A stretch of 6,745 bases of DNA, taken from a bacterium. Its GTDB lineage: Bacteria > JALSQH01. The translations under genes and the position numbers were made by a program. Below the pieces are notes generated by a model, which saw only the letters and a program-made list of their open reading frames with translations, was not told where the DNA came from and ran no database searches. The DNA is taken from positions 1 through 6,745 of the forward strand of contig JALSQH010000245.1 of the NCBI GenBank assembly GCA_026985515.1, given 5' to 3'. Positions 836 through 4,110 of the stretch are shown piece by piece (positions within the stretch are counted from its first letter, which is position 1; every line of letters begins with the position of its first letter).

Positions 836-3220
836 TTATTGACTGATATCAACTATCCTGTACCTTATATCTGTTTTCCCATTCTCAATCTGCTCCCATG
901 CCACAATCAGTTTATCTTCACCCATAAATTTAACGGCGGGTCTGCTGGCCTGCGTCATTCTTGAAATTCTGATTCTTTCTCCAAATCCGTCATTTTCTCT
1001 GACTTTCATATAGATCACCCTCTCACCCTCAAAGTAACCCTGCCACACCACAGCGACCCTCCTTCCAGAGGGTGAAAAATCAATATCGGGAAACCAGGCG
1101 GGTCCATCATCCACAACTTCAGAAGTTTTAATCACACCATTTTCATACGAAGTAAATCTTATGGCAGGCATTGGATATTTCCCTCTGCCCCTGACATCTG
1201 CCCACGCAAAGTAAAATCTTCTTCCACCACCATACCTTACCACCGGGTCAGAGTGCAATCGTTCAATTTTATCCCCCGCATCATCAACTCTGAAATTTTT
1301 CCCCGCAATTTCCGTCACAAAATCTGCGTAAATATCCCAGGAAAAGTTTCTGAAATCTATCCAGGAAACCATGTAACCATCATCCCCCACTGCCACAGAA
1401 GGGGAAAAACTGCTGTCCATGTGATCCGAAGAAGGTCCTTCCTCATCCACCCTCAACCACATAGAAAAATCATTCCCTCCATCCTCACTTACAGAGAGAT
1501 AGATCCTCTCCTCACCCGTACCATAACCTACCCACGCAACGGCTACTCTATTCCCTCTACCATCAATTGAAGGAATCCATTGATGAGCATCTTCACCGGC
1601 AGGGCTACCTACATCAACTTTCCTGAATTTCTTCCCATCCACACTGAATGAGACAACGGTACTGTAGCTACTTCCCCTCTTTTCTTCCCACACAATAAAC
1701 AACCTTCCAGCAGTGAAAACAATTCCTGGTCTTCTGCCCCCATACCCCGATACAGGAAGCACATCTTCCACTTTTCCATTTTTAACAACTGTTAGATAAA
1801 CCCTCTCTCCTTCACTCTCCCTGCCGGAAAAAGCGATAAAAACCCTACCATCAGGGGAAGTTGCCAGTGCGGGAAACCTCTCATAATCCACCACATCTAT
1901 CTTTTCTCCAGAAGGAATGGAAGAATCAACAAGTGCCTCTGAAGGAGAGGGCAATTTAAAAGTCAGATCAGCAATCAGAATACCTTCTTTATACCTGTTC
2001 TCGTAAGAGCTTCCAGAACCCGGGGCAAGCTCTTCTGCATACTTATTTAAAATTGCCCTCCTCTCATCAAGACTCAACTCAGGGTCAGTGACGCCCGGAT
2101 CAGGGAAAGCCCATGGAGACACATAGTAAAAACCATAATCCTTCTCCTGTCCCACAAATGAATTCAGAGTATCGGAGTGAGATGACTTTTTGACAATATG
2201 CGTTTGCCCATCAAAGACAATATCAAAAAAATTCCCGTTGAGCATGGGAACACCAGAGTAAAGGATTGATGGAAACTTCTGAACATCATTCCATGAAGAT
2301 AATTTCACCACCGTTGGATACCATCCCCCATAGGGATCATAACCCCAGCCCTGAAAAGCTTCAGGTTGAAGAAGAAGATTCACCCCCTCAATATCAAGCC
2401 TTTCCAGGACATCAGGCATCCAGGCATCTTTGCTTATAACAATCCCGACAGTGGCAAAGGGCAGCGAAACAGGCTGGATTTTTGATATTTCTCCGGGGGT
2501 CATCTGGAGCGTCTCATATTCATCTGGAACAAGGTAAATTTTCGGCCTCACAGCAATAATTTTTCCATGAGGGTCAAAAACCACAGCCATGTTGTAAACC
2601 TTTTCTAATGCCGCTGTAAATACATATCCATACGACTCCCTTCCAAACAACTTCACAATATCTGGTGAATCAGTTTTCTTCACATCTCCCGACACATTTA
2701 CAGTGGCAACAACATACACCCCGTACCTCTTTGCAATGTAACCAAAGGTCTCAACCAGACTCCTCCACGCATTATCAGTTAGAGAAAGTAAAAGCAGTCT
2801 CTGAAAAGGAGCATCAGGATAGATGGATCTGTAAAAATTTATCTCGTCAGAATAGGCTGCGGACAGTTTCAGCATTGCAGAGGTAGAATCCCCAGACTCC
2901 CTGGCATCTTTACCCTTATCTCCTATGAAGGCAGCCACAAGGGAGGTGTCTTCGGGAAAGACAAGAAGATTTGGGACTTTTTTCGATAAGCATCCCTTAA
3001 TTTTTTCTACTTCAGAAACATATGCCTTTTTAAAACTATCAAAGGATTGTGCCTCATCCATGGAAAATTTGTGACCAATGGTAAATAACCTGACCTTTGT
3101 ATCCGCCTTCCTTGAAAAATGGATGGGACAGGCTGCCTTCTCTTTCCCTTTACTGCATGAGGAGAAAAGAAAAAGTAAACCGAGAAAAAAGATAAAAAGA
3201 AAATGGGTAATCTTTCTCAT
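836..3220 (-). CDS. Lipoprotein: nitrilase-like domain (catalytic Cys replaced by Ser) fused to a seven-repeat beta-propeller
   Basis: This 794-residue protein begins with a lipoprotein signal: Lys/Arg near the start, a hydrophobic stretch at 7-19 and a lipobox-like LFSSC ending at Cys22. Ser23 follows, so outer-membrane sorting is possible in a diderm. Residues about 42-425 resemble a carbon-nitrogen hydrolase (nitrilase) fold: VFPE with Glu90, VRPKIYLVPDE with Lys227, and the strand GIVISKD where the family has G-x-x-(I)-C-Y-D. The nucleophile position is Ser263 (AGC at 2434-2432), and no Cys occurs after residue 77, so ordinary thiol amidase chemistry looks lost. The domain is longer than the usual 260-300 residues, with extra sequence around 95-150 and 290-410. 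Residues about 446-794 contain seven repeats, each with a Pro then a Trp/Phe about 13-15 residues later; one repeat carries an Asp-box (578-585), as in BNR/sialidase-type propellers. I infer a ligand-binding envelope protein rather than an enzyme. ATG 3220 is preceded by GGGGAGG 5 bases upstream. It follows the TPR gene by 56 bases and is probably co-transcribed with it. Confidence 0.85.
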   Translation of the reverse strand: MRKITHFLFIFFLGLLFLFSSCSKGKEKAACPIHFSRKADTKVRLFTIGHKFSMDEAQSFDSFKKAYVSEVEKIKGCLSKKVPNLLVFPEDTSLVAAFIGDKGKDARESGDSTSAMLKLSAAYSDEINFYRSIYPDAPFQRLLLLSLTDNAWRSLVETFGYIAKRYGVYVVATVNVSGDVKKTDSPDIVKLFGRESYGYVFTAALEKVYNMAVVFDPHGKIIAVRPKIYLVPDEYETLQMTPGEISKIQPVSLPFATVGIVISKDAWMPDVLERLDIEGVNLLLQPEAFQGWGYDPYGGWYPTVVKLSSWNDVQKFPSILYSGVPMLNGNFFDIVFDGQTHIVKKSSHSDTLNSFVGQEKDYGFYYVSPWAFPDPGVTDPELSLDERRAILNKYAEELAPGSGSSYENRYKEGILIADLTFKLPSPSEALVDSSIPSGEKIDVVDYERFPALATSPDGRVFIAFSGRESEGERVYLTVVKNGKVEDVLPVSGYGGRRPGIVFTAGRLFIVWEEKRGSSYSTVVSFSVDGKKFRKVDVGSPAGEDAHQWIPSIDGRGNRVAVAWVGYGTGEERIYLSVSEDGGNDFSMWLRVDEEGPSSDHMDSSFSPSVAVGDDGYMVSWIDFRNFSWDIYADFVTEIAGKNFRVDDAGDKIERLHSDPVVRYGGGRRFYFAWADVRGRGKYPMPAIRFTSYENGVIKTSEVVDDGPAWFPDIDFSPSGRRVAVVWQGYFEGERVIYMKVRENDGFGERIRISRMTQASRPAVKFMGEDKLIVAWEQIENGKTDIRYRIVDISQ

Positions 3221-3225
3221 AAATA

Positions 3226-3261
3226 CCTCCCCGTTAAAGATATCTTACTGGAAGGTAACGG
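3226..3261 (-). promoter_or_regulatory. Possible stem-loop abutting the lipoprotein gene's ribosome-binding site
   Basis: In the 56-base gap between the TPR gene and the lipoprotein gene, CCGTTA (3231-3236) and TAACGG (3256-3261) form a perfect 6-bp inverted repeat with a 19-base loop. The loop side contains the 10-base palindrome AAGATATCTT (3237-3246). Read on the minus strand, the 3' arm runs directly into the Shine-Dalgarno GGGGAGG (3232-3226), sharing its first two G residues. The stem could partly mask the site or act as a processing element. It has no following T-run, so it does not look like an intrinsic terminator. A short chance repeat remains possible. Confidence 0.35.
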
Positions 3262-3276
3262 AAATTACAAGGAGGC

Positions 3277-4110
3277 TTATCTCACTCTCATATGCCTGTG
3301 GGGATCAATAAGAAAATCATAGTTGTACTTATCCCACTTTTCTCTGAGATACTTTCTGGCAATGGGAAGGGTCCTCATGGTCCATCTTTTGATCAGGAGT
3401 TCATACCAGGTCCTGGGATGAATGGATGGTATTTTTGAAAGGAATTCATCAGCAAGTTTGATATTTCCACGTGCTGCCTCAAGTTCGGCCAGGTACATAT
3501 AGATATGGGCAAAATCAGGTGATATGGACATAGCTTCATAGAGGTACTTACTCGCCTTATCCATACTACCAAAACTTAGTGGAAAAGGTGGAAGCTTGAA
3601 GTAAAGGCGTCCCAGTACCTGACACGGCATTGCATAGTAGTATTTCTTATCAATTCTGTAAGCCTTTAAAGCAGCATCTCTCATATCCTTTGCAAGACTG
3701 AGTACATTTAAAACTCCTATGGTGATTCCATATATACCAAGGAAGATGGACTTTCTGATCCACCCATCTGGATGATCAGGAAATTTTTTTATAGTTTCCT
3801 CAGCGTATTTTAACCCTATTTTTGCATACATCGCTTTTCGATCAACAGGAGCAATATCCCAGAGGATATACATGTAACTGTTGCGAAGAATGTAAAGTTC
3901 TCTTGAATCTGGATGGAGTTTTAAAGCCTCATTTATTCTGTGGATAATTCCAAGCACATACTTTTCATCCTCAATTTTTTGCAAATTCACTGCTATCTTT
4001 GAGCCAATGGGCCTGTTTAAATCGTAGAGTTTAAAGCTGACATTTCCACCCCACAAAAGAAAGGGGAAAGTAGCTGAGATAAAAATAAAAACAACTCTTA
4101 TTCCTTTCAT
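3277..4110 (-). CDS. Exported TPR-repeat protein, TatT/RMD1-like
   Basis: The 277-residue product starts with a signal peptide: Lys2 and Arg5, a hydrophobic core at 6-20 and small residues Gly21-Gly22 as a plausible cleavage area, so the mature protein is probably periplasmic. The rest is helical and TPR-like. Examples are ALKLHPDSRELYILR around 62-76, a second helix pair around 97-125, and a clear unit at about 183-225 with KASKYLYEAMSISPD and YLAELEAARGNIKLADEFL. The centre has the pattern VLGRLYFKLPPFPLSFGS (165-182), which resembles the 'LGRLY-x-LP-x-x-P-x-S-x-G(D/S)' region of TPR proteins annotated as TRAP-transporter T-component (TatT) or RMD1-like. No TRAP permease or binding-protein genes are nearby, so a transporter role is not supported; a scaffold or partner for the downstream lipoprotein is an inference. 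The C-terminus is basic (HRHMRVR). No convincing Shine-Dalgarno precedes ATG 4110, and the likely -10 box lies only about 15-20 bases upstream, so the leader may be very short. Confidence 0.82.
   Translation of the reverse strand: MKGIRVVFIFISATFPFLLWGGNVSFKLYDLNRPIGSKIAVNLQKIEDEKYVLGIIHRINEALKLHPDSRELYILRNSYMYILWDIAPVDRKAMYAKIGLKYAEETIKKFPDHPDGWIRKSIFLGIYGITIGVLNVLSLAKDMRDAALKAYRIDKKYYYAMPCQVLGRLYFKLPPFPLSFGSMDKASKYLYEAMSISPDFAHIYMYLAELEAARGNIKLADEFLSKIPSIHPRTWYELLIKRWTMRTLPIARKYLREKWDKYNYDFLIDPHRHMRVR

Follow-up and report, generated by a model that had tools for sequence, protein, structure and literature searches.

A bacterial lipoprotein family of the nitrilase superfamily with serine at the position of the catalytic cysteine

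Gene and domain architecture

The window (the whole stretch of 6,745 nucleotides analysed here, contig JALSQH010000245.1) encodes on its minus strand a lipoprotein of 794 amino acids, the Ser-nitrilase (836..3220, (-)). Its open reading frame has a ribosome-binding-like site just upstream, a Shine-Dalgarno-like GGGGAGG read from the sequence (3226..3232, (-)). The product begins with a lipoprotein signal peptide and lipobox (LFSSC, residues 18-22, with Cys22; 3155..3220, (-)); the single N-terminal hydrophobic helix, residues 2-20, is this signal peptide, and no transmembrane domain is fused to the nitrilase domain. A lipobox lies at the equivalent place in most homologues and Lgt is encoded in the source genome, by which the protein is predicted to be a bacterial lipoprotein.

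The nitrilase-fold domain occupies about residues 40-420 (1961..3103, (-)) and was delimited by a PF00795 match, an AlphaFold domain model, and VIA-align. The Pfam CN_hydrolase profile (PF00795) matches residues 205-285 at 25.8 bits, against a gathering cut-off of 23.2. Modelled alone (389 residues), the domain reached a pLDDT of 92.2 and a pTM of 0.92, and it superposes on nitrilase-superfamily amidases with Z 23-26 and an rmsd of 2.4-3.4 A over 230-262 residues at 13-20% identity; the VIA-align match list is filled by nitrilase-superfamily chains. By descent and by its alpha-beta-beta-alpha nitrilase fold, the window protein belongs to the nitrilase superfamily and PF00795. The full-length AlphaFold model (pLDDT 83.9) places a second, C-terminal domain at about residues 436-794 (839..1915, (-)), a beta-propeller of sialidase/lectin type whose fold matches include lectin, integrin, sialidase-type, and CylK propellers and which is missing from short homologues. 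The first-pass annotation had described a nitrilase-fold lipoprotein, a description that the Pfam score, the fold model, and the lipobox bear out, but it had overlooked this separate propeller of about 360 residues.

The active site and its serine

Enzymes of the nitrilase superfamily are described as dependent on a cysteine thiol. In the window protein, the general-base position is held by Glu90 (GAA; 2951..2953, (-)), the position of the oxyanion-hole lysine by Lys227 (AAA; 2540..2542, (-)), and the nucleophile position by Ser263 (AGC; 2432..2434, (-)), as located by alignments, homologues, and the model. The translation, phmmer, and profile alignments agree with the earlier proposal that these residues stand at the Glu-Lys-Cys positions of nitrilases. 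With phmmer, Ser263 aligns with the Cys of GLMVCWDQW in the Helicobacter pylori C-N hydrolase 6mg6 and with the engineered Ser158 of MtCPA C158S (5h8k). In profile-profile alignment it pairs with the catalytic-site Cys in canonical nitrilases (GVLVCWDQW, E 1e-8) and, by hhalign, with that in the nearest Cys-bearing sisters (GVAICLDAF, E 1e-38); a profile search of PDB sequences likewise matches it to the Cys in mouse Nit2 and in the Pyrococcus enzyme. The catalytic Glu and Lys of Glu-Lys-Cys nitrilases are thus present and the Cys nucleophile is not; with Ser at the nucleophile position, the protein is filed as a Ser-bearing homologous branch, outside the Glu-Lys-Cys nitrilases proper. The source genome has three more CN_hydrolase genes, an ordinary Nit-like one, a Lnt-sized one, and one of 583 amino acids with an N-terminal amidase-like domain, and all three keep the Cys.

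In Lnt, a short helix starts at Cys387, the catalytic Glu is hydrogen-bonded by Asn314, and the site is supported by Glu343 and Glu389 (PMC5500890). The structure prediction proposed in the first-pass annotation returned a nitrilase fold with Ser263 (residue 228 of the domain model) opening a helix, 228-232, after a strand, 221-225, as Cys387 does in Lnt; profile alignments and predicted secondary structure put this residue, and no other, at the nucleophile position. By analogy, Asn210 (2591..2593, (-)) may be the counterpart of Lnt Asn314, Glu234 (2519..2521, (-)), at the position called the fourth catalytic residue, that of Glu343, and Asp265 (2426..2428, (-)), the acidic residue two places after the nucleophile, that of Glu389.

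A different cysteine taking the place of Ser263 was also considered. The translation contains Cys only at residues 22, 31, and 77, so none lies near the site and none follows residue 77, as had been noted before. Calescibacterium homologues carry a Cys four residues upstream (IDVCIGIS), which is not present in the other homologues.

Homologues and conservation

A search of 386 genomes yielded homologues at 29-38% identity. The single protein, used as a query of genome contigs, found no relatives; an alignment of homologues as query recovered 20 named loci, from Myxococcales, Sandaracinaceae, Candidatus Calescibacterium, Nitriliruptoraceae, a Nitrospirae-labelled MAG, Deinococcales, Catellatospora, and Fontimonas thermophila. 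The peptide patterns that fetched these loci leave out the nucleophile column, and tabulation of that column gave Ser in 20/20, independently of how the loci were found. Close homologues with Cys, which would have pointed to a strain-specific or sequencing change, had been named in the first-pass annotation as an outcome to look for; the close homologues carry Ser.

The larger comparison comprises 29 non-identical Ser rows, made up of the 20-locus set plus surveys of Myxococcota and Deinococcota, with Ser itself a selection criterion. These rows come from at least six phyla and have a median pairwise identity of 31%. E90, K227, and S263 are kept in 29/29, E234 and N210 in 28/29, and D265 in 24/29; the relaxed conservation by which a pseudoenzyme would be recognised is not seen at the remaining catalytic residues. 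Residues R44, R107, Q285, W292, D337, and Q339 are also invariant; they are specific to the family and atypical of canonical nitrilases.

A second census with a family profile, over 386 genomes mostly of different families, was bimodal: seven genomes had hits at 299-527 bits and three at 83-112 bits, with none between. Ser was read in 7/7 of the strong-hit genomes and Cys in both of the weaker hits that were read (two of the three). A search of plasmid records returned one weak ordinary match, and a search of predicted viral proteins returned nothing useful. No description of a bacterial Ser nitrilase family was found in the open-access literature.

Evolution of the serine position

Within Deinococcota, Ser members (L088/L094, L093) are outnumbered by a sister group with Cys (L095-L112, L036, L008). 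In Myxococcota, one homologue (L069) has Cys at the nucleophile with Glu and Lys intact, no export signal, and a long branch, from which Ser and Cys appear exchangeable in the family. In another (L068), Gly stands at the nucleophile position and the Lys is gone too; this homologue is a candidate true pseudoenzyme for comparison. The homologue L066, a Ser row, keeps Glu and Lys and has lost Glu234 and Asp265.

When the nucleophile column is left out of the tree, the Ser rows, L068, and L069 group together with support (97/84), apart from the Cys sisters. Strict monophyly of the Ser rows is rejected (AU test, p 0.002; 0.03 with the Gly row L068 allowed), a result driven by the long-branch L069, so either this member reverted to Cys or Ser arose more than once. 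The Ser codon belongs to the AGY class in 14 rows and to the TCN class in 15, and on the tree the class has changed at least six times. A switch between the two classes takes two base changes, by way of Cys, Thr, or a double change; Ser has therefore been retained or re-acquired repeatedly at the level of the residue. Homologue pairs, with dN/dS of 0.09-0.28, are under purifying selection. The exchange of Ser for Cys is real, ancient, and conserved.

Export signals (lipobox, signal, or transmembrane anchor, judged by eye) were seen in 23/28 Ser rows versus 3/28 Cys rows, counts that amount to only two independent comparisons on the tree. In the sister genome G001, all that remains is a piece of the C-terminal propeller, interrupted by stops and frame breaks (L009 1440-2620, (-)), apparently the decayed remnant of a Ser-nitrilase gene; the gene is thus dispensable.

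Gene neighbourhood

Upstream of the Ser-nitrilase gene, co-directional and 56 bp away, lies a gene for a TPR protein (3277..4110, (-); Pfam TPR_19), a possible operon partner. This pairing was not seen near other Ser-nitrilase homologues. Five matches to the window TPR protein, at 22-44% identity, were found in G001, so it looks like a member of a lineage-specific TPR family. On the plus strand, the window carries a MlaE permease gene (252-830, (+)); at L079 and L082, two loci of Calescibacterium type, MlaE homologues also occur on the Ser-nitrilase stretch, at a distance of several kb and possibly by coincidence.

A gene neighbourhood conserved around Ser-nitrilase genes was sought across phyla, and none was found. 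In Fontimonas thermophila (L090 6909-10979), a GDPD phosphodiesterase domain is fused before the Ser-nitrilase domain in one lipoprotein, and a flavin amine oxidase gene comes after it. In Nitriliruptoraceae (L083 6625-7995, L084 3232-5277, L086 6334-8061), the gene of an MFS_2-family transporter overlaps the Ser-nitrilase start by a few bases, which suggests co-translation. The GDPD domain and amine oxidase of Fontimonas and the MFS_2 transporter of Nitriliruptoraceae are hints as to the substrate.

Serine enzyme or binding protein

Ser is common to homologues in many phyla and is thus due neither to chance nor to a sequencing error. A strain-specific mutation or an error in sequencing or assembly, for which no supporting point was found, is refuted by 29 independent Ser homologues with two codon classes and has a negligible probability. 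Conservation of the swap across at least six phyla suggests a serine-based branch rather than a dead copy, and the intact Glu-Lys-Glu-Asn set alongside Ser speaks for serine as a functional nucleophile. The window protein would then probably represent a membrane-anchored branch of the nitrilase superfamily whose E-K-S(-E) site forms an ester acyl-enzyme. In such a mechanism, Glu90 would deprotonate Ser263, Ser263 would attack an amide or ester carbonyl, the oxyanion would be held by Lys227 together with the N-terminus of the helix, and the ester acyl-enzyme would be released to water or to an amine. The propeller may serve to bind a partner or ligand. In oxidising compartments outside the cytoplasm, serine may be better suited than a free thiol. 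For the family as a whole, the balance tips slightly towards a natural Ser-nucleophile branch in at least six phyla, mostly extracytoplasmic, that cleaves amides or esters or transfers acyl groups via Glu-Lys-Ser.

Catalysis is only inferred here, because engineered Cys-to-Ser nitrilases are much less reactive. MtCPA C158S keeps binding with strongly diminished reactivity (PMC4812014), which counts against serine catalysis, as do the C-to-S mutants of yeast Nit2 and the Nesterenkonia amidase used for structures, the loss of Asp265 in 5/29 rows, gene neighbourhoods that vary between phyla, and the dispensability of the gene in G001. The same retention of binding with loss of reactivity (PMC4812014) speaks for a conserved pseudoenzyme, a surface receptor or binding lipoprotein whose Glu/Lys/Ser pocket would bind a small amide, amine, or polar ligand and not turn it over, and whose propeller would pass on or present a signal. 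The lipoprotein-plus-propeller layout suits binding, and no metabolic neighbours are conserved. Against this stand the full Glu-Lys-Glu-Asn set kept alongside Ser, the switching of codon class while Ser stays, and the case of true nucleophile loss, L068, in which the Lys is lost as well. Between the two readings offered in the first-pass annotation, pseudoenzyme or serine variant, the intact catalytic set favours the serine variant as the likelier, and the conserved binding pseudoenzyme, although possible, is rather unlikely. It is quite improbable that the scaffold serves a different chemistry, such as a non-covalent hydrolase working through activated water or some other reaction, with Ser263 as a hydrogen-bond donor. 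A weaker nucleophile in the same pocket and the invariant residues atypical of canonical nitrilases would fit such a change, but the presence of Cys in L069 and in the sister group speaks for nucleophiles that can replace one another.

If the serine-nucleophile reading is true, the Ser branch gives a natural serine/cysteine comparison on the nitrilase scaffold. A family that keeps Ser along with the other catalytic residues and has Cys sisters is a natural experiment on an active site using either nucleophile. Any search that relies on the catalytic Cys will overlook these proteins or give them a wrong name; they are candidate targets for activity-based serine-hydrolase probes.

Comparison with known systems

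Canonical nitrilases (Nit2, N-carbamoylputrescine amidohydrolase, beta-ureidopropionase, and the PH0642 amidase) share with the window protein the fold, the Glu, the Lys, a conserved Asn, and a nucleophile at the start of a short helix. The window protein differs from them in its Ser for Cys, in helical insertions (a 389-residue domain versus about 270), in its lipoprotein anchor, and in its C-terminal propeller. The Deinococcota Cys sisters are the closest Cys-bearing relatives in sequence and share QPxAN..W, the Glu, and the Lys, but they have a Cys nucleophile, mostly no export signal, and no propeller that could be seen.

Lnt is alike in having a nitrilase domain that acts outside the cytoplasm, and its E-K-C-E is matched by E90, K227, S263, and E234. 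It differs by a transmembrane domain and a Cys nucleophile, both of which the window protein lacks, and a Lnt-like protein with Cys (C260) is encoded by another gene of the source genome.

Natural E-K-S triads are reported for cephalopod vanin-like proteins, whose authors note that serine could still be the nucleophile (PMC5541922); this is a point in favour of serine catalysis. As described there, the nitrilase domain of these vanin/symplectin-like proteins likewise retains Glu and Lys and naturally has Ser for Cys; they differ in belonging to the eukaryotic pantetheinase family, in that Ser arose several times, and probably in the C-terminal part, a base domain in the vanin-like proteins and a modelled beta-propeller in the window protein (PMC5541922). 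The engineered proteins MtCPA C158S (5h8k), yeast Nit2 C169S (4hgd), and Nesterenkonia amidase C145S (5nz5) bear the same substitution at the same position, but they are laboratory mutants of Cys enzymes, whereas the Ser of the window family is natural and conserved.
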